A stretch of 40,506 bases of DNA. Origin: Oscillospiraceae bacterium. GTDB lineage: Bacteria; Bacillota; Clostridia; Oscillospirales; Acutalibacteraceae. Within the stretch, counting starts at the first letter, position 1, and every line of letters starts with the position of its first letter. The position numbers and the translations under genes were made by a program. The notes under the pieces were generated by a model. The model searched no databases. It saw only the letters and a program-made list of their open reading frames with translations, and was not told the origin of the DNA. The stretch lies in contig SVOV01000021.1 in assembly GCA_015066205.1 (NCBI GenBank), positions 1 through 40,506 of the forward strand, in the 5' to 3' direction. Positions 1 through 25,090 of this stretch are shown one piece after another.

Positions 1-50
1 AATTCATATGCAAAACCAGCAAAAATATCTTTTTTGTAGCCCATAGACAT

Positions 51-170: not shown

Positions 171-335
171 GTTTTGGCGGTTTTTATACGGGTTTTAGGG
201 CTGTCCCTAACAAGTGGAATTTGTATGCACAAATTCAATGCTTGCTAAGACTTATAACACATTTTTTACTGCTTTTTCGGTTGGTTTGCTGAAGCATTTT
301 TTCACTTCCTTTACTTAAAAATTTTGCATTTAAAA

Positions 336-2221: not shown

Positions 2222-4433
2222 ATCTGAAAATTGATATTATCATACCGATAAACTTTATAAATATGGCAGATATTTTTTCAATGAAAGTATCTGCAGTGCT
2301 TATGTCGGGATCAAACTGCTTTCTTCCATCGGATGTATCGGGAGCAAAACGGATATTATCAATGCTGATATCAGTGTCGGTTTCGCTTGCAAAAGAAAAA
2401 CGGATTTCCTCAACCTTATCGAGTTTGCCGCAAGGGTTTCCTGCGCCGCCCTCATTGCCGAAAAGATAAAGTCTGTTAAGGTCAACTGTTACAAGGTGCC
2501 ACTGACCGTCGGCAGGGATTATTGCTTCAACACCCTTTGTGCCGTTAACCGCAGGTGAATACCATTCAAGTGAATTCTTTAAAATTCTGATTTCGCTCAA
2601 TTCGACATCTGCACCGCCGTTGTTACGCACTAAAAAGCTCATCTTACCGTAATCGGAATAATCATTATCGGTATCTTCAAATTTTTTGCCGAATTTATAA
2701 TTGAGTGAGGGACATAAGGTAAATTCCGTATTGCCTGTTACATTCATAACACCGTTTGCAAAGGTTATTTGCGCGCCGTCAGCCGACCAGGAAGAAAAAT
2801 TCTTGTTTGCCTCCATTTCGCGCATAACGTGCCAGGTAAGCTCATCGTTGCAGTCCGTCCACGGTCTGTCAAACCAATAATGAGTGCCCACGGATTTATC
2901 TGTAACAAACTGACATACGGGCAAGGCAAGTTTGCCGTTTGCCGTTGAGTAAAGATTGGAGCGCATATTGCTCACGCAGTATGCATAGCTTGCGGATACG
3001 GGTGAGGTCACGTCATCGCTCCACACCTTTACCGTATCAGCCGAAACGATTTCGGCATTCGCCTGAACATAAACGCCGTCTGCACCGCAAACCGCAAAGC
3101 CGTAAAGTTCATCGCCGCCGCAGGCAAGTTCGTCACCTTCATTTATGAATGTAACATAAACTGCACCGTCACGGATTTCGGTTTTTTCAACGGTTGCGGC
3201 TGTGTAATCATTATCACCGCCGTAAACAAGACCCTTTGCGGCAAACGCCATTCTCTCACCTATTTCCTGTTTGCATTCGGGGTGGATTGACCCTGCATCG
3301 GGCAGAAACGTGAGAGGTACGTCATAAATCGTTACGGTTGCTCTCGACTCGGGCTGTGCCGCCTGAATATCACAGTAATTGATATTCCAATCCAGCATGA
3401 TCAATCCGTCGTCGGAGTAAAGATAGGATGCAATCTGAGTGCAGATAAAGGGCATTCGCTCATTTTTATAGCCGAAAAGCTCCGAATAGGAACGCTGCAT
3501 CAGATCATAGAAATCAGCATAGGCTTCCTCGCTGTATTCGAGCATCAAATCGGTTTCGCCCTGATACCAGATCATACCCGAGGGCCTGAAATTTCTGAGC
3601 GGATGAATCTTGTGATTATAGTTGGCGGTCATGTCCCGGTAAATGCTGGGATTTACCTTTTCCCAATCCGATTTTTCTATGTATTTATCGATGGAATCAA
3701 GATAATTTTTGACCTTGCTGTCGCTGTCAATGGCATCTCTTGAAAGCCAGCTTGCAATTGCAGAGCCGCCAAGCGAAGCGTTGAGAATGCCTACGGGCAT
3801 ATCAAGCTCTTCCATCATCTGCGCCGCAAAATAATAGGCAACGGCACTCATATTGTAAATGTGCCCGTTTTCACCCGTAGTCCATACTGCGCCGACTGCA
3901 TCCTGCTGAGGATCAACAAAAGTATCGTTTTCGTTGTTGTTGCAATAAACAGGCATATGCAGAACACGAAGCCACTTGCTCAGCTTCTGCGAATTTTTAA
4001 ACATATCTGCGCCGCCCTTTGCCTGAGAAAGGGGATACTGCATATTGCTCTGACCGCTTGCCAGCCACAGTTCACCGAAAACAACATTATCAAGCTGTGC
4101 AAATTCGGCTGAATTTTCTTTGAGAATTACTTTGTATTCTTCATAGCTTCCTGCAGGAGCCCGGAACGATACGGTAAAAGTGCCGTCAGGCAGGACTGAT
4201 GAACTTCCGCTTGCAACAAGCTCATCTGCCGCATTATACATTTGGGCGGTTACTTTTGCACCTGCAGATGCCGTACCTGCAAAAACAGCTTCCTTGTTCT
4301 GTTGGAAAAGCATACCGTCTCCGTAGGTTGCGTAGAGCTTCGCAGCTGTTTCCTTAGCATAAGCCATACTCATCCCACAAATTGCAAATAAAAACGAAAG
4401 AATAACGGAAAGAATTTTTTTCAATGCAATCAC
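2220..4433 (-). CDS. Secreted sialate O-acetylesterase-like enzyme
   Basis: 737 residues, GTG start at 4433-4431 overlapping by four bases (GTGA) the stop of the upstream gene; a later ATG start would lose the signal peptide (residues 1-26). The first SGNH block is LWLASGQSNMQYPL with probable nucleophile Ser129. IWYQGETD (288-295) and DAGSIHP with Asp379 and His384 complete the set typical of the 9-O-acetylesterase (SASA) family. Residues about 560-710 look like a beta-sandwich carbohydrate-binding module, and the last 20 residues form an amphipathic aromatic helix (IEKISAIFIKFIGMIISIFR). Family members remove acetyl groups from sialic acid or, in many gut Firmicutes, from xylan or other plant glycans; the substrate here is not fixed by sequence. 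It is the second gene of an operon under the AraC-type box at 5719-5732. Confidence 0.85.
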   Translation of the reverse strand: MIALKKILSVILSFLFAICGMSMAYAKETAAKLYATYGDGMLFQQNKEAVFAGTASAGAKVTAQMYNAADELVASGSSSVLPDGTFTVSFRAPAGSYEEYKVILKENSAEFAQLDNVVFGELWLASGQSNMQYPLSQAKGGADMFKNSQKLSKWLRVLHMPVYCNNNENDTFVDPQQDAVGAVWTTGENGHIYNMSAVAYYFAAQMMEELDMPVGILNASLGGSAIASWLSRDAIDSDSKVKNYLDSIDKYIEKSDWEKVNPSIYRDMTANYNHKIHPLRNFRPSGMIWYQGETDLMLEYSEEAYADFYDLMQRSYSELFGYKNERMPFICTQIASYLYSDDGLIMLDWNINYCDIQAAQPESRATVTIYDVPLTFLPDAGSIHPECKQEIGERMAFAAKGLVYGGDNDYTAATVEKTEIRDGAVYVTFINEGDELACGGDELYGFAVCGADGVYVQANAEIVSADTVKVWSDDVTSPVSASYAYCVSNMRSNLYSTANGKLALPVCQFVTDKSVGTHYWFDRPWTDCNDELTWHVMREMEANKNFSSWSADGAQITFANGVMNVTGNTEFTLCPSLNYKFGKKFEDTDNDYSDYGKMSFLVRNNGGADVELSEIRILKNSLEWYSPAVNGTKGVEAIIPADGQWHLVTVDLNRLYLFGNEGGAGNPCGKLDKVEEIRFSFASETDTDISIDNIRFAPDTSDGRKQFDPDISTADTFIEKISAIFIKFIGMIISIFR

Positions 4434-5503
4434 CCTTTTTCAATAGTTTTATCCGTATATATAACCTGCGAGCCCTGCCAGGAAAGATAGTTTTTCTCTA
4501 CACCGATTTCTTCAATCCATGCACGGACTTCAGGTGTCAGAAGAACAAGAGATTCGTGGGAGTTATTCCATACCCATGAAGGCGTAGGCCACAGACAGAT
4601 TTCGGGAACGGCAGCTTCGTAAAATTCTTTCGATACACCTGCCTGACCGTGGTGTGACATTTTGCATATATCACAATCCAGAAGCTCCTTGTATTCGGGG
4701 TTTGCAAGCACCTTGTTGCCTGCGCTTACAGCGGCATCCCCTGTAAACAATATGCTTTTTTCGCCAAGTTCCATACGGAATATAAGAGAGGAGTCATTGA
4801 CTATCGGATAAGCAGGGTCAAAGGTGTAAAGCACGGTTATTTTTGCCGCACCGATATCGAAAACATCGCCATCGTTAATAATCTGAACCTTTTCGGGGAA
4901 AGCCTTGCTTATTCTGTTAAACTCGGCTATCATTTCTGCGCCTTCCGCCGCGTCGGACGAATCGATGGCGGCATAGTATTCATAAGGCGCATAGTGGTGA
5001 ATGACCTTGTCAAATTTTACCTGACTTGTGCGATTTTCAGCCACTTCATTAAAAACCTGAACATGGTCGGTGTGAGGATGTGTCAGAAACCAAACATCAA
5101 TTTTCGGTACCGCCTGCCCCGTGACAGCCTTGAGGTACTGAATGAAGTAATCGGTTTCAAAATTATAACCGCCGTCAATAGCAATGACCTTGCCGTCCTC
5201 GGTTGTGATGATAAAGCTGTCGCCTATAGCATCTTCAACCGATTTAAGCATATGAATAGCATTTTTGTTCATAGTGTTGGGGACGCCCTCTTTTTTTATT
5301 ACAAAATAATATTTGATACTGTTAAAAAACGCCCTGATTTTTGCAAACAGTTTATCGAAGAAGGCAATGAATGCACAGTCGCCGTCTTCTTCATTTGCAA
5401 CAGATTCAGCTGTCTGCTCAGGCTCTGCCTGAACGGCAAAAGCCGGTGCTGAACATGCAAACATCATAACCGTTACAAGAATAATTGAAATAAATCTTTT
5501 CAT
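4430..5503 (-). CDS. Secreted metallo-beta-lactamase-fold hydrolase (ComEC C-domain-like)
   Basis: 357 residues with signal peptide (1-about 23). An amphipathic aromatic segment follows at 43-69 (CAFIAFFDKLFAKIRAFFNSI and onward), then the MBL fold from about 75. Metal ligands are seen in THPHTDH (His142, His144, Asp146, His147), in FTGDA (Asp256) and in MSHHG (His284). The order GDSFII ... IDGG ... HPHTDH ... FTGD ... SHHG is that of the MBL domain of ComEC/Rec2 and of related free-standing secreted hydrolases. The substrate is unknown; phosphodiester cleavage is usual for this branch. The ribosome binding site before the ATG at 5503 is poor. It is the first gene of a two-gene operon with the esterase, overlapping it by four bases, which suggests coupled translation. 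The link between an MBL enzyme and an esterase is unusual and unexplained. Confidence 0.85.
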   Translation of the reverse strand: MKRFISIILVTVMMFACSAPAFAVQAEPEQTAESVANEEDGDCAFIAFFDKLFAKIRAFFNSIKYYFVIKKEGVPNTMNKNAIHMLKSVEDAIGDSFIITTEDGKVIAIDGGYNFETDYFIQYLKAVTGQAVPKIDVWFLTHPHTDHVQVFNEVAENRTSQVKFDKVIHHYAPYEYYAAIDSSDAAEGAEMIAEFNRISKAFPEKVQIINDGDVFDIGAAKITVLYTFDPAYPIVNDSSLIFRMELGEKSILFTGDAAVSAGNKVLANPEYKELLDCDICKMSHHGQAGVSKEFYEAAVPEICLWPTPSWVWNNSHESLVLLTPEVRAWIEEIGVEKNYLSWQGSQVIYTDKTIEKG

Positions 5504-17433: not shown

Positions 17434-18732
17434 TCAGTTTACGGGGGAAAATCTCACGGGAGGGGTTGATTCATCAATAACCATAAATTCATAACCGTTT
17501 TTAAGTCCGAATTCAATTATGCTTTTCACTGCCTCAACCGTGGTATTCTTTATATCGTGCATAAGCACAATTGCTGTTTTGCGGTTTTTTAACTGATTAA
17601 TTGTAGTGCTTGCTATCTTTGATGAGCTGTAGCCGAGGGTGTCACAGCAGTCAATATTCCAGTCATAATATCGGTAACCCTTTTCCGTCATGGTTTTTGA
17701 GAGAACAGACATAATTCCTCTTGAATAGCTTCGGCTTACCGTATTATTTGTTCCGCCGGGAAAACGGAAGATTTTTGTATCAATACCCGTTTCATCCTCA
17801 ATGATCTTATGCATTGCATTAAAGTCTTTGAGATAGCTTTCTTTACTTGAATAAATTGACCATTGATGTGTAAGGGTATGAACACCGAGAGTGTGTCCGT
17901 CTTGGGCAATTTTTTTGATAAGGCTTTTATATCTCGGCATCTGATTTGTTACAAAGAAAGTTGCTTTGACATTGTACTCCTTAAGATATCCGAGAAGCTT
18001 TTCCGTATACGGTCCGGGACCGTCATCAAAGGTAAGATATATGCTTTTTGCTTTATCGGAGGTTATTTTGAAAGAGCATTTTTTACAGGTCTTTGATTTT
18101 GAATTATCATTGACCTCCCAATATGAAAAGCTGTGTCCCTGTGCTTTTTCGGTCGCTACGGGCTTTTCCTTATAAGAACAGACCGTGCAGTATATTGTTT
18201 CAGTTCCGTCCGTTGTGCAGGTTGCTTTCTTTATGCTCTTTTTGAGAGTATGTCCTTTTGCCTGCACTATATCGGTTTTCTCACCGCTTTTATAGGAGCA
18301 GTCTTTACAGCGTTTTTCGGTGTAGCCTTCTTTTGTGCAGGTTGCCTTTATTTTAATTGAGATGATCTCGTGTCCGCGGAGAATACATTTTATGCTGTCA
18401 AGACCGACAGAAATGCGAAGAACCGTTCTTGCATCATCAGAAGTAATTTCTTTGTCCGAATTCATATCTCCGTAAAGAAGAATATTTTCCGTTGTTTCTT
18501 CTAAACCGACACAGGCTCTTAGAATAACTCTTGCATCGGTTGCCGTAATTTTGCCGTTTTGGTCGATGTCACCGAAAGAATTTTCATTAAAAACATCAGT
18601 ATTACCGTTTTCGCAGGACGGTTCTTCTGTTGCATCAGATATGTTTTCAGTACCGTAAGCAGAAAAAGAACAGCTGAAAATGAGAATAAGAACAAGCAGA
18701 CTGCTTGAGAATTTTATCAATAAATTTTTCAT
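17434..18732 (-). CDS. Secreted polysaccharide deacetylase with dockerin and Cys-rich repeats
   Basis: 432 residues. Signal peptide 1-27. A type I dockerin spans about 53-111, with two calcium loops: Asp55, Asp57, Asn59 and Asp66, then Asp89, Asn91, Asp93 and Asp100. Residues 120-222 hold three GH...CT/C..C modules (Cys132, 142, 145; 172, 182, 185; 216, 219). From 230 on comes a NodB deacetylase domain: LTFDDGP (Asp236, Asp237), HTLTHQW (His285, His289), RFPGG (323-327) and LMHD (His392). The catalytic set is complete. NodB enzymes deacetylate peptidoglycan, chitin or xylan. The dockerin implies docking on a cohesin scaffold, which is not in this window. It is third in the operon, 15 bp after the rRNA methyltransferase gene. 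Confidence 0.9.
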   Translation of the reverse strand: MKNLLIKFSSSLLVLILIFSCSFSAYGTENISDATEEPSCENGNTDVFNENSFGDIDQNGKITATDARVILRACVGLEETTENILLYGDMNSDKEITSDDARTVLRISVGLDSIKCILRGHEIISIKIKATCTKEGYTEKRCKDCSYKSGEKTDIVQAKGHTLKKSIKKATCTTDGTETIYCTVCSYKEKPVATEKAQGHSFSYWEVNDNSKSKTCKKCSFKITSDKAKSIYLTFDDGPGPYTEKLLGYLKEYNVKATFFVTNQMPRYKSLIKKIAQDGHTLGVHTLTHQWSIYSSKESYLKDFNAMHKIIEDETGIDTKIFRFPGGTNNTVSRSYSRGIMSVLSKTMTEKGYRYYDWNIDCCDTLGYSSSKIASTTINQLKNRKTAIVLMHDIKNTTVEAVKSIIEFGLKNGYEFMVIDESTPPVRFSPVN

Positions 18733-20964: not shown

Positions 20965-21020
20965 AAAACTATAAAACGGTTAAGTATGAATCGGTAGAAT
21001 TGTGATCAGGAGATTAAATT

Positions 21021-22397
21021 ATGGGACTTTTCAATAAAATCGGACAGCTGAAAGAGTATAAAGAGGGAATTCAGCATTGCACCTTTAATCCCGACGGACC
21101 GGGTGTTGTCAGAATTCATCTTATTCCCCCGAAATTCAGATGGTTTTCTTCCGATTCTTATATAGTGATTCTTAACGGATATTATCTTCTCCCCGTGGGC
21201 TTTTCCTGGGCAATAGTGCTTTCATCCTTTATAAAAGAAGTCAATAAGTTTGATTCAAAGGAAATAACGCCCGAGGACGAAGCACTTATTGAAAGAAATA
21301 CGGTTAAAAGAGTACAGAAGATCTATCCTTTATTGGAGTCCTCTTTTATAAGAAGTGATCTTTATGAGATTCTTGATATCATATTTTCAGTTGCAAGAGG
21401 TGAAGCTCCCGAGTGTGCAATAGAAAAGCTTTCTATCCGTTCATATGCCGACAGTATGACGGCCCCTCACAGAATGGATCTTATGATAAGCGCAATGACG
21501 GATAAAAGGGGAAACTGGAACTGTAATCAGAAATGTAAATTCTGTTATGCGGCAGGACAGAGTAAAAGCTCTCTTCCCGAGCTTTCAACAGAAGACTGGA
21601 AAAAAATTATCGTAAATTTAAGAAAGGCACGGGTGCCGATGCTGACCTTTACAGGCGGTGAGCCTACAATGAGAGAGGATCTTCCGGAGCTTGTATCCTT
21701 TTCAAAATGGTTTGTTACAAGGCTTAATACAAACGGAGTTATGCTTACTAAGGAGCTTTGTGAAAATCTTAAGGCGGCAGGACTTGACAGTGTGCAGATA
21801 ACGCTTTACAGCTGTGTTGAGGAAATACATAATGAACTGGTCGGTTCATCTCATTTCTTGGATACTGTTCAGGGAATAAAAAATGCAGTTGAGGCAGGAC
21901 TTGATATCAGTATAAACACTCCTCTTTGCAAGCTTAATTCCGACTACGGCAGTACATTGCGGTTTATCCGCTCTCTCGGTGTCAGTTTTGTTACCGTAAG
22001 CGGTATTATATGTACGGGCTTTGCAAAAAACTCGTATGAAGAAGCTGATCTTACCGAAGAGGAGCTTTTCGGGATAATAAAAGATGCAAAGGATTTCTGC
22101 AATAAGAACGGAATGGAAATTGATTTCACTTCTCCCGGTCTTATATCAAAAGAAAAGCTTGAAGAAATTGGTATGAATGTTCCGATGTGCGGTGCAGCTC
22201 TCAGTAATATGGCTGTATGTCCCGACGGAACGGTTGTTCCCTGTCAAAGCTGGCTCGGGACAGAAAACGGACTCGGAAACATTCTTACAGACGATTTTTC
22301 GGTAATATGGAACAATGATAAATGTAAAAAACTGCGGAAGCTTTCCGAAACGGAAGCTCTCCTCTGTCCTTTCAGGTGTAAGGAGATGATAAAATAA
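21021..22397 (+). CDS. Radical SAM/SPASM protein, candidate modifier of the adjoining Cys-Ala tail protein
   Basis: 458 residues, with CAGGAGA before the ATG. The cluster motif CNQKCKFC (Cys168, Cys172, Cys175; CX3CX2C) is followed by GGEPTMRED (212-220), a radical SAM barrel and a C-terminal auxiliary-cluster region with Cys390, Cys400, Cys408, Cys435, Cys449 and Cys453, arranged as a SPASM domain (CGAALSNMAVCPDGTVVPCQS ... CPFRC). Before the barrel lie about 160 residues with no domain I can name; the part around 45-110 might be a peptide-recognition (RRE/PqqD-like) fold. SPASM enzymes mostly install thioether or carbon links in ribosomal peptides. Its stop codon overlaps by one base the start of a protein ending in Cys-Ala repeats, so that tail is the natural candidate substrate (inference). 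Confidence 0.85.
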   Translation: MGLFNKIGQLKEYKEGIQHCTFNPDGPGVVRIHLIPPKFRWFSSDSYIVILNGYYLLPVGFSWAIVLSSFIKEVNKFDSKEITPEDEALIERNTVKRVQKIYPLLESSFIRSDLYEILDIIFSVARGEAPECAIEKLSIRSYADSMTAPHRMDLMISAMTDKRGNWNCNQKCKFCYAAGQSKSSLPELSTEDWKKIIVNLRKARVPMLTFTGGEPTMREDLPELVSFSKWFVTRLNTNGVMLTKELCENLKAAGLDSVQITLYSCVEEIHNELVGSSHFLDTVQGIKNAVEAGLDISINTPLCKLNSDYGSTLRFIRSLGVSFVTVSGIICTGFAKNSYEEADLTEEELFGIIKDAKDFCNKNGMEIDFTSPGLISKEKLEEIGMNVPMCGAALSNMAVCPDGTVVPCQSWLGTENGLGNILTDDFSVIWNNDKCKKLRKLSETEALLCPFRCKEMIK

Positions 22398-23509
22398 TGG
22401 GAAAAAGGAAAAGAAACAAAAAGAAGACTGAAGCCGCTGAAAAAATGACTTTTTCGGAAAAAGAGGTTTATCTGAAAAGAAGACTGCCCGTTAAAAACAT
22501 AATCTTTCTTGTTATTCTTGTGCTTATTCAGGCTGTGCTTATAATATTTGCTCTCAATATTCCCGATGCATCTCCCAAGGATATTATAAATGATTACAGA
22601 ATTACTGTTGAACCGAAATCAGACGGTACTCTCGACCTTGATTATTCATTTAACTGGACTGCAGTTGACAGCTCAGAGGAGCTTCAATGGGTCGAGATCG
22701 GAATGCCTAACGAAAACTATACTGTCGATGAGTATTCTTTAAGCGATAATATAAACGGCTTTGAAAAATATTCATACAACGGCAAGGTTACATTAAGGCT
22801 GTTTTTTGAAGAATCATACATAGACGGCGAAACCTTTGATTTCGGTTTTTCCGTAAATCAGAAGAGTATGCTTTGCCGTAATGACGGCGGATATTTCTAC
22901 GAATTTATACCGTCCTGGTTTAATTCCGTTCCCGTAAAAAGCTTCTGTATTTCTTGGAAGAATTCGGAAAATATAAAATATTCAGAATATGATTTTCTGA
23001 AGGACGGATATATAAACTGGAGCGGAGAGCTTCCCTGCGGCGAATATATAAAAATAAATGTGTCCTATAATGATGCCTTCTTCGATGAAACGGCAGCTGT
23101 AACGGCATATACTCCGTTTGATCCGAGCGGAGTTTATAATGATCTTTCAGCAGAAAAGTGGGCTCCGACGGTTATTATGATAATGTTTGTTGTTTTACTG
23201 GGTGTTATAGAGCTTCACAGTATCGACAGTCTTGTGTCATATGTCAGAGGACGCGGCTTTCTCAGAAGCTACGGACAGTATGTGCATCTTTACGGCGGGC
23301 TTAATCCCGTGCAGAAGCACATCAGTATGGTAAATGCAAGAAGGACATTCGGCACAACGGGAAGGGGTGTCGGTCACCGAAGCGGAGTAGGATTTACCTC
23401 GGGCGGCTGTGCGTGTGCCTGTGCATGTGCTTGTGCCGGCGGCGGAAGAGCCGGTTGCAGTCAGAAGGATACCGCTTCTTTTTCCAGAATTTATTCAGAG
23501 AATGAATAA
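22397..23509 (+). CDS. Two-helix membrane protein with a C-terminal (Cys-Ala)5-GGGRAGC tail
   Basis: 370 residues; the ATG shares its first base with the radical SAM stop (TAATG). A basic N-terminus is followed by membrane helix 1 (about 33-53), an extracytoplasmic beta-rich domain (about 60-250, weakly like DUF2207), membrane helix 2 (about 255-272) and a cytosolic tail. The tail has FTSGGCACACACACAGGG with Cys338, 340, 342, 344 and 346, then RAGC (Cys354) and an acidic end. The alanine codons in the repeat are GCG, GCC, GCA, GCT and GCC, so the repeat is kept at protein level and is not a slipped microsatellite. It may be a radical-SAM modified peptide on a membrane stalk, or a metal-binding tail. 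I know of no function for it. Confidence 0.8.
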   Translation: MGKRKRNKKKTEAAEKMTFSEKEVYLKRRLPVKNIIFLVILVLIQAVLIIFALNIPDASPKDIINDYRITVEPKSDGTLDLDYSFNWTAVDSSEELQWVEIGMPNENYTVDEYSLSDNINGFEKYSYNGKVTLRLFFEESYIDGETFDFGFSVNQKSMLCRNDGGYFYEFIPSWFNSVPVKSFCISWKNSENIKYSEYDFLKDGYINWSGELPCGEYIKINVSYNDAFFDETAAVTAYTPFDPSGVYNDLSAEKWAPTVIMIMFVVLLGVIELHSIDSLVSYVRGRGFLRSYGQYVHLYGGLNPVQKHISMVNARRTFGTTGRGVGHRSGVGFTSGGCACACACACAGGGRAGCSQKDTASFSRIYSENE

Positions 23510-23575: not shown

Positions 23576-25090
23576 ATGGCTTCAAAAAATGCTGTTGCTG
23601 ATAAGCCCGCTGCCGGTATTTATGAGTCTTTCAGTGAAAGACGCTTTGTCAGCAGAAAAGAAACCGTAGCGTATGTGCTTAACGATGCTTCTTACAGTCT
23701 TAATATCAACGACTTTAAGGATCGTTATATATACGATGTTGTTAAAATCGATTTTAATTTTCTTGCAGCACAGAATCTCATAGCAACTGTCTGGGATACA
23801 ATAAACGATACCTTTATCGGTGTTATTGTTGAAAAAACAAGAACCAGATGGGGTAAATTCAGACCATATCTTCTTCTCGGTGAATTTCCGCTTACCATTC
23901 TCGGTATGTGGTATTGGCTGATTCCCTTTATTTTCCCCGATACTCCTGATAATTATGTTCCGAAGCTTATTACATATTTTGTTCTTTCTATCGTAACGGA
24001 AACAGCGGGTACATTTACCGCTATTGCAAAATCAGGCTTCCTGTCAACTATCACTCCGTCACCGATGGAACGATCAAGGCTTATTGCACTTGCTAATGTA
24101 GTAACTCATATCTTTGAAGATATTCCCAAACAGGTATTCGGTATTATTTATGACCTTGTTATCAGCAAGAAAATAAATATTAAATTACCTTATCTCTTCT
24201 CTGTTTTCGGAATGGGCTGTGCACTGTTCTCTGCCTGTCTTGCGGTTTATTTCTTCTGGACATCAAAAGAACGAGTTGCTCAGACAATTTCAAGGCCCAA
24301 GGTCAAGCACAGCCTGAAATCTGTTCTTAACAATAAGCCTATGCTTATAAGTCTTATTTCATCATTCCTTTCAGGCTTCTCCATAGGACAGAGCAGAACC
24401 AATTTCTACATTGATGTTATCGGTTCAATTACCTGGAAGACCATCGTCGGTATTCCTGCTTTCCCCGTTAAGTTCATAAGCTACAGCTTCGTTAAGCCCT
24501 TAAGAAAGAGATTTTCCACGAAAGCTCTCTGGATTCTTGAGGATGCATGGACTGATATGCTGTGGCTGACGGTCTTCGGAATCGGCTCTATTAATAACAA
24601 TTTCCAGAAAAAGCATATTATCCTGCCTATGATGGGAATTGAAGAAATTTTTGAAATGTGTGTTTACGGCTTAAGACGAGTTATTCCCGCTGAGATCAGC
24701 AACGAATCCATGGACTACTGCGAATGGAAAAACGGCTACCGTTCAGAGGCTATGACCGGTGTTACGGCATCTATCATTTCAAAGCTTCAGCAGGCTGTTA
24801 TGGGCTCTATTAACAGCATCGTTATGAAGAAGATCGGCTATATTCAGGGTAAAGAGATCGGTACTCAGACTGATCTTACAAAGTGGTGGATATTCGCTCT
24901 CGGTACAGGTATTCCGATCATTTCATCAAGCCTTGGTATTATCCCGAAGTTCTTCTATCCCTTATCGGCAGAAACAAGAAATCAGATGTATTCCGAGCTT
25001 TATGAAAGAAGAAAGCAGAAGGCAGAGCTTATGACAAATGCAGACGAAGATACAATTGCAGAGGTTATAAGCAACGAATTCAAGGATTAA
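23576..25090 (+). CDS. GPH-family sugar:cation symporter, paralogue of the one at 7830
   Basis: 504 residues, with GGTGA before the ATG. The order and motifs are those of the first copy: DTINDTFIGVIVEKTRTRWGK, PMERSRL, KTIVGIPAFPVKFISYSF, HIILPMMGIEEIFEMCVYG and DYCEWKNGYRSEA. The first about 20 residues and several loops differ, so it is an old duplication rather than a recent one. Whereas the other copy is enclosed by two esterases, this one follows the radical SAM/Cys-Ala pair and has its own promoter and a strong terminator. The substrate is unknown. Confidence 0.82.
   Translation: MASKNAVADKPAAGIYESFSERRFVSRKETVAYVLNDASYSLNINDFKDRYIYDVVKIDFNFLAAQNLIATVWDTINDTFIGVIVEKTRTRWGKFRPYLLLGEFPLTILGMWYWLIPFIFPDTPDNYVPKLITYFVLSIVTETAGTFTAIAKSGFLSTITPSPMERSRLIALANVVTHIFEDIPKQVFGIIYDLVISKKINIKLPYLFSVFGMGCALFSACLAVYFFWTSKERVAQTISRPKVKHSLKSVLNNKPMLISLISSFLSGFSIGQSRTNFYIDVIGSITWKTIVGIPAFPVKFISYSFVKPLRKRFSTKALWILEDAWTDMLWLTVFGIGSINNNFQKKHIILPMMGIEEIFEMCVYGLRRVIPAEISNESMDYCEWKNGYRSEAMTGVTASIISKLQQAVMGSINSIVMKKIGYIQGKEIGTQTDLTKWWIFALGTGIPIISSSLGIIPKFFYPLSAETRNQMYSELYERRKQKAELMTNADEDTIAEVISNEFKD

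Follow-up and report, generated by a model that had tools for sequence, protein, structure and literature searches.

We describe a two-gene unit in a window of 40,506 nucleotides, i.e. the whole stretch of DNA analysed here (contig SVOV01000021.1 of the Oscillospiraceae bacterium assembly GCA_015066205.1), in which the gene of a radical S-adenosylmethionine (SAM) enzyme with a SPASM-like domain overlaps the gene of a membrane protein (called the carrier for simplicity) whose C-terminal tail reads (Cys-Ala)5-GGGRAGC-SQKD. The unit is carried by many gut bacteria and some of their relatives, and its two parts co-occur with such regularity that the enzyme probably modifies the tail rather than making a released peptide. 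We consider it likely that the two proteins are enzyme and substrate and that the cytosolic tail would be modified in place on the carrier, most likely to a ladder of thioether links. The proposal is built on features read from the sequences, namely the pairing of the two genes, its deep conservation, the joint absence of enzyme and tail from a relative of the same genus (G009), and the predicted topology of the carrier.

Enzyme and tail occur together

The carrier gene starts on the last base of the stop codon of the enzyme gene (TAATG), and this one-base overlap indicates that translation of the two genes is probably coupled. An earlier note on the same DNA had described a radical SAM/SPASM gene overlapping a membrane-protein gene in this way, and the open reading frames (ORFs), the TAATG junction and the Pfam matches given below bear it out. 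The pair is present as a single copy in the window genome (85% complete).

The same note had set the joint occurrence of tail and enzyme as a test, which was approached from both sides. Searches with only the enzyme profile (E<=1e-60) matched 10 of 391 class genomes (9/390 non-focal) and 12 of 329 phylum genomes with the window included (11/328 non-focal), and relatives within this threshold were inspected for tails. The tail was present in all 20 non-focal genomes bearing the enzyme: directly beside it in 17, in a neighbour split by an insertion in one (G731) and across contig ends in two (G611 and G648). In G611 the contig ends within the adjoining carrier, and a different contig has a second carrier with a tail; in G648 the tail sits at the end of a contig other than that of the enzyme. 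The carrier gene of G731 (locus L155, 5660-8592) is split by a transposase-like insertion and its enzyme gene is open throughout; its tail reads CACACACACACAVGGRVGC and is not caught by the tail pattern. Among the 391 class genomes the enzyme profile matched 10, the tail pattern 10 and the carrier profile 11, with nine common to enzyme and tail (hypergeometric p 1.9e-16, calculated for independent genomes, which these are not fully). Both discordant genomes were resolved: the enzyme of G771 is cut by the contig start, and the tail of G731 was missed by the pattern. The carrier profile includes the tail, and its 11 class genomes are the same as the enzyme and tail genomes combined. The 11 non-focal phylum genomes consist of six from two families (f134/f196) and four from f93/f98, all tailed, and one (G1040) whose contig stops within a similar tail. 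Ten distant phylum enzymes were compared and are 30-36% identical to the window enzyme; in f93/f98 the gene order is reversed, the carrier preceding the enzyme, whereas the enzyme comes first in the window.

Starting from the tail, the tail pattern recovered at least 119 stretches with at least 122 tail frames from the genome collection, the stretches not all being separate genomes (L042 and L046 are neighbouring pieces of one contig, L106 and L111 belong to one assembly); L106-L144 are counted in the tail frames and left out of the alignments. Among the matches listed, the enzyme is encoded in the locus DNA of 99 of 122 tail frames (93 adjacent on the same strand, two adjacent on the opposite strand, four elsewhere in the locus), the DNA ends within 150 bases upstream in 22, and a single frame away from an edge (L052, weighed below) has no enzyme. 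Fifteen of the 22 edge cases were searched genome-wide and 12 of them have the enzyme, at adjoining coordinates in 10 (the same contig being assumed) and on another contig in two (L064 and L080). Taken together, the result of the test agrees with joint occurrence. The named isolates Gemmiger formicilis ATCC 27749 and Hungatella hathewayi WAL-18680 have tail and enzyme as well, at adjoining coordinates if the contig numbering matches.

A search with the window carrier (P0002) found carriers in one of 25 other genomes of the genus and in six of 398 genomes of the family, window included. In five genomes from four other genera of the family the enzyme lies directly upstream of the carrier (5/5) and the tail reads (CA)5-6-GGGRAGCSQKD. 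G009, of the same genus as the window, encodes a carrier homologue of 326 aa between rsmE and an MFS symporter gene, 89 bases from rsmE, which has none of the tail Cys, and its genome (86% complete) gave no enzyme, only generic radical SAM matches of at most 61 bits. The homologue of G009 shares 35% identity with the window protein, compared to 43-47% for the tailed carriers of other genera. Since G009 has a carrier with neither enzyme nor tail, the enzyme is linked more closely with the tail than with the other parts of the carrier. Read from these sequences, enzyme and tail behave as a set, and an ectodomain can occur where both are missing; the simplest reading is that G009 lost both, with gain of both elsewhere as the alternative.

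Enzyme and ectodomain distances correlate with r 0.88 (50 pairs; maximum 0.21 in 2000 permutations), which points to joint inheritance more than to contact, because shared descent alone can give such a correlation. The tree comprised 50 of the 53 enzymes, namely those for which a complete carrier is encoded on the same strand no more than 300 bases away. The QKD type of C-terminal extension (9 rows) maps to one branch of this tree (97/92), and the KDFY type needs three changes. At three loci (L031, L089 and L158) one enzyme stands beside two tailed carriers; the second, tandem carrier of L158 (6759-7706, +) has CACACAYACACA, one repeat Cys being replaced by Tyr. Outside Clostridia, tailed carriers were also seen in bins labelled Acholeplasmatales, Anaeroplasma, Victivallales, Coriobacteriaceae and Eggerthellaceae (L051, L081, L142, L117, L115, L056 and L076), reflecting either horizontal transfer or misbinning.

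Sequence of the Cys-Ala tail

In the window carrier the tail Cys stand at positions 338, 340, 342, 344, 346 and 354, and the repeat is encoded as TGT GCG TGT GCC TGT GCA TGT GCT TGT GCC, using all four Ala codons; both points had been made in the earlier note and are read directly in the sequence. At least two Ala codons are used in 64 of 68 tail genes. Adjacent Cys-Ala units are identical at the DNA level in 54 of 295 cases, compared to 65.6 +/- 5.6 in codon shuffles within genes; neighbouring units are thus no more alike than shuffled ones, and the tail does not appear to be the product of recent slippage. The back-translated CACACAGGG pattern matches 10/391 class genomes and the same pattern reversed matches none, which argues against chance. 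These sequence comparisons support the previous suggestion that selection acts on the tail peptide.

The repeat has a length of 3-7 units, and the same tail is found throughout six measured host loci with a G+C content of 27 to 63%. GGGRAGC is present in 122/122 frames among the matches listed, these frames having been selected by pattern, so that the invariance of CACAGGGRAGC among pattern-found tails arises partly by construction. The phylum matches were found without the tail pattern: in six f134/f196 genomes the tail reads C[AY]CVSCACACVSCACACACAGG[GR]GAGC and in four f93/f98 genomes the carrier ends with SCACACACACA[SG][SG]GGCT, i.e. the tail persists though the ectodomains are only distantly related. 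In many members the upstream units break the two-residue period (CAHSSC, CVSC). The commonest C-terminal extension in class loci has the form [ST]xKDFY, and 7-42 residues separate the end of the Cys motif from the C-terminus in frames that are not cut by the DNA end.

Predicted topology of the carrier

From the N-terminus, a Lys/Arg-rich stretch of the window carrier is followed by two membrane segments that flank about 200 extracytoplasmic residues, and then by the tail; the best hydrophobic windows of the protein are residues 26-44 and 250-268. Averaged over 66 carriers, the net charge amounts to +1.9 after the last membrane segment and -2.6 before it, and it is higher after than before in 54 of them (segments and charges were computed for an earlier count covering 80/119 loci). 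This bias fits a cytosolic tail, and the two membrane helices and cytosolic tail claimed previously are thereby upheld as a prediction: the carrier would be N-in, its DUF2207-like domain extracytoplasmic and its C-terminal tail cytosolic.

Apart from the truncated carrier of L052 (269 aa), the carriers are 313-513 aa long (67/68 frames, starts guessed), i.e. the partner of the enzyme is a membrane protein in 67/68 frames and not a short precursor peptide. The window carrier has no Pfam match at E<=1. DUF2207 (PF09972) is matched weakly, at E<=0.1, by 25 of 66 carriers (best 1.1e-4), a Pfam zinc ribbon by 14/66, and four aligned Cys lie between membrane and tail in 32/66. The ectodomains of the phylum matches are related to the class carriers at the profile level only (hhalign prob 99.9, and 96.5 for f93/f98). 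The carrier alignment (A2) contained 65 of 68 carriers together with P0002, L052, L101 and L103 being left out for wrong or missing starts. In L026 a canonical DUF2207 protein is encoded near the pair (113-1966, -) with a Gly-Ser-rich tail without Cys-Ala, and the carrier at this locus has its Cys-Ala tail and its ectodomain encoded in different frames.

Domains and cysteines of the enzyme

The window enzyme matches the Pfam families Radical_SAM (PF04055, 2.3e-21), which places it in the radical SAM superfamily, and SPASM (PF13186, 1.5e-08, 35.2 bits against a cut-off of 21.5). The full SPASM motif has seven Cys, including CX2CX5CX3C, and this part is missing from the SPASM-like domain. The label SPASM-type in the earlier note is therefore right for the Pfam family and too generous for the motif. 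Seven Cys are invariant (C168, C172, C175, C303, C390, C408 and C449; 53/53), a set that suggests one auxiliary cluster; C393 is present in 43/53 and C435 in 46/53, the window enzyme being without C393. No cut-off of a curated NCBIfam model was reached among the best 25 of 70 matching models (top 104 bits against 500), and the relatives L233, L228 and L027 likewise stayed below the cut-offs (best 25 models each). Sequence matches in the PDB are confined to the radical SAM/SPASM parts. Two other assignments were rejected. With regard to a defence system (prokaryotic viperin, PADLOC pVip), the match of the enzyme (63 bits) is limited to residues 167-316, a catalytic core common to both, and the carrier gives a weak match to the candidate family PDC-M13A (E 0.0069) with no single stretch passing. 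As a relative of the SCIFF maturase, its catalytic domain aligns (hhalign prob 98.7) and the N-terminal domains do not (prob 0.3).

The N-terminal 147 residues match no Pfam family above cut-off, and a search of the PDB by sequence with the N-terminal profile revealed no convincing relative, the best match being a ribosomal protein (E 0.011). Compared to 14 PqqD segments with hhalign at default settings, as for all PqqD scores given here save those with an extra option, the window domain scored 28.4 (prob 55, 29 columns; maximum 18.9 in 100 column shuffles) and the f93/f98 domain 29.6 (prob 69, 51 columns; maximum 16.8 in 60 shuffles), so that the signal exceeds the shuffles in two of three enzyme branches. 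The N-terminus of the SCIFF maturase, used as positive control, scored 22.4 against a shuffle maximum of 22.2 and is thus itself a weak control. An extra hhalign option lowered the scores (prob 4.6 for the window domain, 10.8 for SCIFF). Directly compared, the f134 domain is clearly homologous to the window domain (prob 99.2), and the f93/f98 domain reaches prob 5 against the window domain and 26.5 against that of f134/f196. The PqqD set contained 14 of 17 matches (L188, misread, L192 and L195 were left out), and the N-terminal alignment (A5) combined the window with 49 of 52 other N-termini, L057, L072 and L088 having failed the motif cut. On these profile comparisons, a domain like the recognition element (RRE) of ribosomally synthesized and post-translationally modified peptides (RiPPs) is plausible but not proven.

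Genes beside the pair

In the seven f134/f196 loci, a TPM-domain gene and a LemA gene follow the carrier in five, and the remaining contigs end inside the TPM gene (L230) or inside the tail (L231). Both were identified by Pfam in L228 only (TPM 6.8e-08, LemA 1.1e-13) and recognised by eye in the other loci. In L225 (4364-6439, -) and L227 (4443-6284, -), carrier and TPM protein form one continuous open frame with the tail in the middle.

No third gene recurs widely beside the pair in the 67 class loci. Candidates were the neighbour clusters common to at least four loci: ABC-transporter ATPases (7), FtsX-like permease, polyprenyl synthase, amylase-like and sensor-like proteins, two other families and antisense artefacts, several of them from near-identical relatives. 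Among these clusters, read by eye and not by Pfam, none looks like a protease; rarer clusters were not reviewed. In four near-identical Lachnospiraceae loci (L031, L038, L042 and L063), ABC ATPase and FtsX-like permease genes were seen 1-2 kb from the carrier. The earlier note had seen neither a protease nor an exporter next to the window pair; over the class loci, no cluster common to at least four loci looks like a protease, and ABC-transporter ATPases lie near 7/67 pairs. The suggestion of the note that the tail stays fused to the membrane protein is supported by the lack of such a protease-like cluster and by the carrier lengths.

Proposed modification of the tail and alternatives

We infer recognition, modification, thioether chemistry and the job of the tail as follows. 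The enzyme would recognise the carrier, possibly via its PqqD-like N-terminal domain, and the cytosol-facing tail would be within its reach. Radical SAM enzymes are oxygen-sensitive iron-sulfur enzymes, and those of the SPASM type commonly form thioethers when their substrates are rich in Cys. Using 5'-deoxyadenosyl radicals, the enzyme may act on the still attached (Cys-Ala)n-Gly-rich-Cys tail in one step per Cys-Ala unit; the most likely product would be a ladder of intramolecular Cys thioether links, each formed with a loss of 2 Da, and the tail would thereby become rigid on the inner membrane face. On the outer side, the ectodomain would act as a sensor or have some other function, together with TPM and LemA proteins in some lineages. 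A tail built of repeats suggests several rounds of one reaction, comparable to those of TvgB on TVGG units (PMC9062424). Thioether formation in place is favoured because of the generality just given for SPASM enzymes, the link in ruminococcin C1 and the retained substrate of QhpD (PMC8172795).

Several observations weigh against this proposal. The SPASM-like domain has fewer Cys than known sactisynthases, and the N-terminal domain of the window enzyme shows no likeness to that of the SCIFF maturase. The PqqD likeness lies below Pfam thresholds, and the f134/f196 domain, with four usable rows of six, scored 18.5 at a shuffle maximum of 18.6. Three of the 15 searched edge cases (L058, L091 and L094) have no enzyme in the genome, their carriers running off the contig. 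L052 keeps the tail with no enzyme in its genome, the only such non-edge frame of the 122 listed; its carrier (3628-4437, -) lacks a start, is truncated without signal peptide, carries an intact tail and is probably a remnant, with a large repeat-bearing, surface-protein-like gene directly upstream. ABC-transporter ATPases near the pair in 7/67 loci, four of them near-identical relatives, make an export route possible there. Finally, alternating Cys-X-Cys also suits metal binding.

The last point leads to the alternative with the most in its favour, which we nevertheless regard as unlikely: the tail would be a metal-binding or iron-sulfur element that serves the enzyme or on which the enzyme depends (e.g. 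a membrane docking site, electron relay or cluster donor), and the substrate of the enzyme would lie elsewhere. A metal-binding tail, in modified form, was also the alternative named in the earlier note. The CxCxCxC spacing, the aligned Cys between membrane and tail in 32/66 carriers and the zinc ribbons in 14/66 speak for it, and the joint absence of enzyme and tail fits it equally. Metal binding would, however, not call for a sequence as specific as Ala at every second place and the constant GGGRAGC of the class; the enzyme resembles peptide maturases in its SPASM-like domain and possible recognition domain, and no other gene family recurs widely beside the pair. It is less probable still, in our estimate, that the enzyme epimerises or otherwise alters every second residue (e.g. 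to D-Ala or D-Cys) to give an L,D-alternating helix free of thioethers. Helices of the polytheonamide and gramicidin type are L,D-alternating peptides with a strict two-residue period, and a strict period over 3-7 units would suit such a peptide, but it is broken by upstream units in many members, and Cys at every second place points to sulfur chemistry.

We see little chance that the tail is cut and released by an unlinked protease, which would make the rest of the carrier the exceptionally large membrane leader of an otherwise ordinary RiPP. Proteases are present in every host, the distance of 7-42 residues between Cys motif and C-terminus would accommodate a core peptide with a follower, and ABC-transporter genes lie near 7/67 pairs; against release stand the lack of a protease-like neighbour cluster common to at least four loci, the predicted cytosolic orientation of the tail, the conservation of the ectodomain down to f93/f98 and the frames of L225 and L227 that continue into the TPM protein. 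Hardly credible to us is adjacency without function, in which operon inertia would maintain the pair and the enzyme would have a different molecule as its substrate: the pairing persists at 30-36% enzyme identity with reversed gene order, and enzyme and tail are jointly absent in G009.

Modification of the attached tail, if extended to all these lineages, would constitute a widespread and undescribed class, a thioether ladder on the cytosolic tail of a DUF2207-like carrier that is never released and works in a membrane complex of the LemA/TPM/DUF2207 type. From the sequences at hand we put forward this broader claim tentatively, as somewhat less than an even bet. If it holds and the links go to the Ala beta carbon, radical chemistry would have produced a lanthionine ladder without any dehydration. 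Known radical SAM peptide maturases mainly act on short precursors and genome mining seeks short peptides; a membrane-protein tail as probable substrate would widen the search space for radical SAM substrates and give the poorly characterised membrane proteins of the DUF2207/TPM/LemA type a chemical handle.

Comparison with known systems

SCIFF is a short peptide, and its maturase (TIGR03974), also encoded in the window genome, is likewise a radical SAM/SPASM enzyme for a Cys-rich substrate; the catalytic domains align whereas the N-terminal domains differ. DUF2207 proteins resemble the carrier ectodomains weakly, and the canonical member in L026 is without the Cys-Ala tail; one DUF2207 membrane protein, SMU.243 of Streptococcus mutans, has been studied for stress tolerance and biofilm (PMC10457818). 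QhpD is a radical SAM enzyme that forms thioethers inside the QhpC subunit (PMC8172795); it is of the radical SAM/SPASM type and acts on a ribosomal protein that is kept rather than released, as proposed for the present enzyme. QhpC, however, is a small enzyme subunit with a protease reported for its biogenesis, whereas the carrier sits in the membrane and bears a Cys-Ala repeat. The sactipeptide maturases treated there (RumMC/ruminococcin C, AlbA and SkfB) share with the window the SPASM-type enzyme beside a Cys-rich partner, and ruminococcin C1 contains a Cys-Ala thioether link; in contrast to the reduced Cys set and the carrier of 313-513 aa, RumMC2 has three clusters, more Cys and a short secreted precursor, and sactipeptide clusters generally come with transport or protease genes (PMC8172795).

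TvgB, also a radical SAM/SPASM enzyme with a short-repeat partner that it modifies repeatedly, acts on TVGG units of the peptide TvgA to give cyclopropylglycine, whereas the repeat here is Cys-Ala and sits on a membrane protein. The Asp-Cys repeat peptides of cluster 59 in the sequence similarity network of the same survey similarly present a Cys dipeptide repeat beside a radical SAM enzyme, but as a free peptide with a recombinase gene and with Asp-Cys in place of Cys-Ala on a carrier. That survey of 118 clusters sought peptides and would presumably overlook a membrane-protein tail (PMC9062424). Text searches of the literature returned no description of the pair or the tail (supplementary survey tables, which may list the enzyme, were not covered). 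The parts are of known kinds; a radical SAM enzyme combined with a Cys-Ala repeat on a membrane-protein tail that is retained was not found in these searches.

Features of the window and mobile elements

Coordinates of the pair and its features are collected in Table 1.

Table 1. Features of the enzyme and carrier genes in the window.
Feature	Coordinates	Strand	Basis
AGGAG, likely ribosome-binding site of the enzyme gene	21008-21012	+	read in sequence; inferred from position
Radical SAM/reduced-SPASM enzyme gene (P0001)	21021-22397	+	ORF, 458 aa; member of the 53-member family A1
Enzyme N-terminal domain, residues 1-147, candidate PqqD-like recognition domain (RRE)	21021-21461	+	hhalign
CX3CX2C radical SAM cluster motif (C168, C172, C175)	21522-21545	+	invariant in 53/53
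SPASM-like auxiliary cluster region (C390, C408, C449 invariant)	22188-22367	+	53/53 enzymes
AAGGAGA, likely carrier ribosome-binding site within the 3' end of the enzyme gene	22380-22386	+	sequence reading; inferred
Carrier membrane protein gene (P0002)	22397-23509	+	ORF, 370 aa; topology predicted
Carrier first transmembrane segment, residues 26-53	22472-22555	+	best window 26-44, extended by eye
Carrier second transmembrane segment, residues 250-275	23144-23221	+	best window 250-268, extended by eye
(Cys-Ala)5 repeat, residues 338-347	23408-23437	+	sequence
GGGRAGC motif, residues 348-354	23438-23458	+	sequence
C-terminal extension SQKDTASFSRIYSENE	23459-23506	+	sequence

A viral or mobile origin of the pair was rejected: neither the peptide patterns nor the tail pattern matched any sequence of the viral_contigs set, and no plasmid matched at E<=1e-30. 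The only viral match is an unannotated and unverified faecal contig of 7.4 kb named 'Bacteriophage sp.' (MT837216.1, L236), which carries the enzyme gene at 2560-3846 and is probably a misassigned bacterial fragment.

Directly downstream of the window pair lies a gene for a GPH-type sugar symporter (MFS_2; 23576-25090, +), which was not counted as an exporter because it is equally downstream in G009, where enzyme and tail are lacking. A polysaccharide deacetylase with a dockerin type I domain is encoded at 17434-18732 (-) and hints at cellulosome-like attachment in the window genome.

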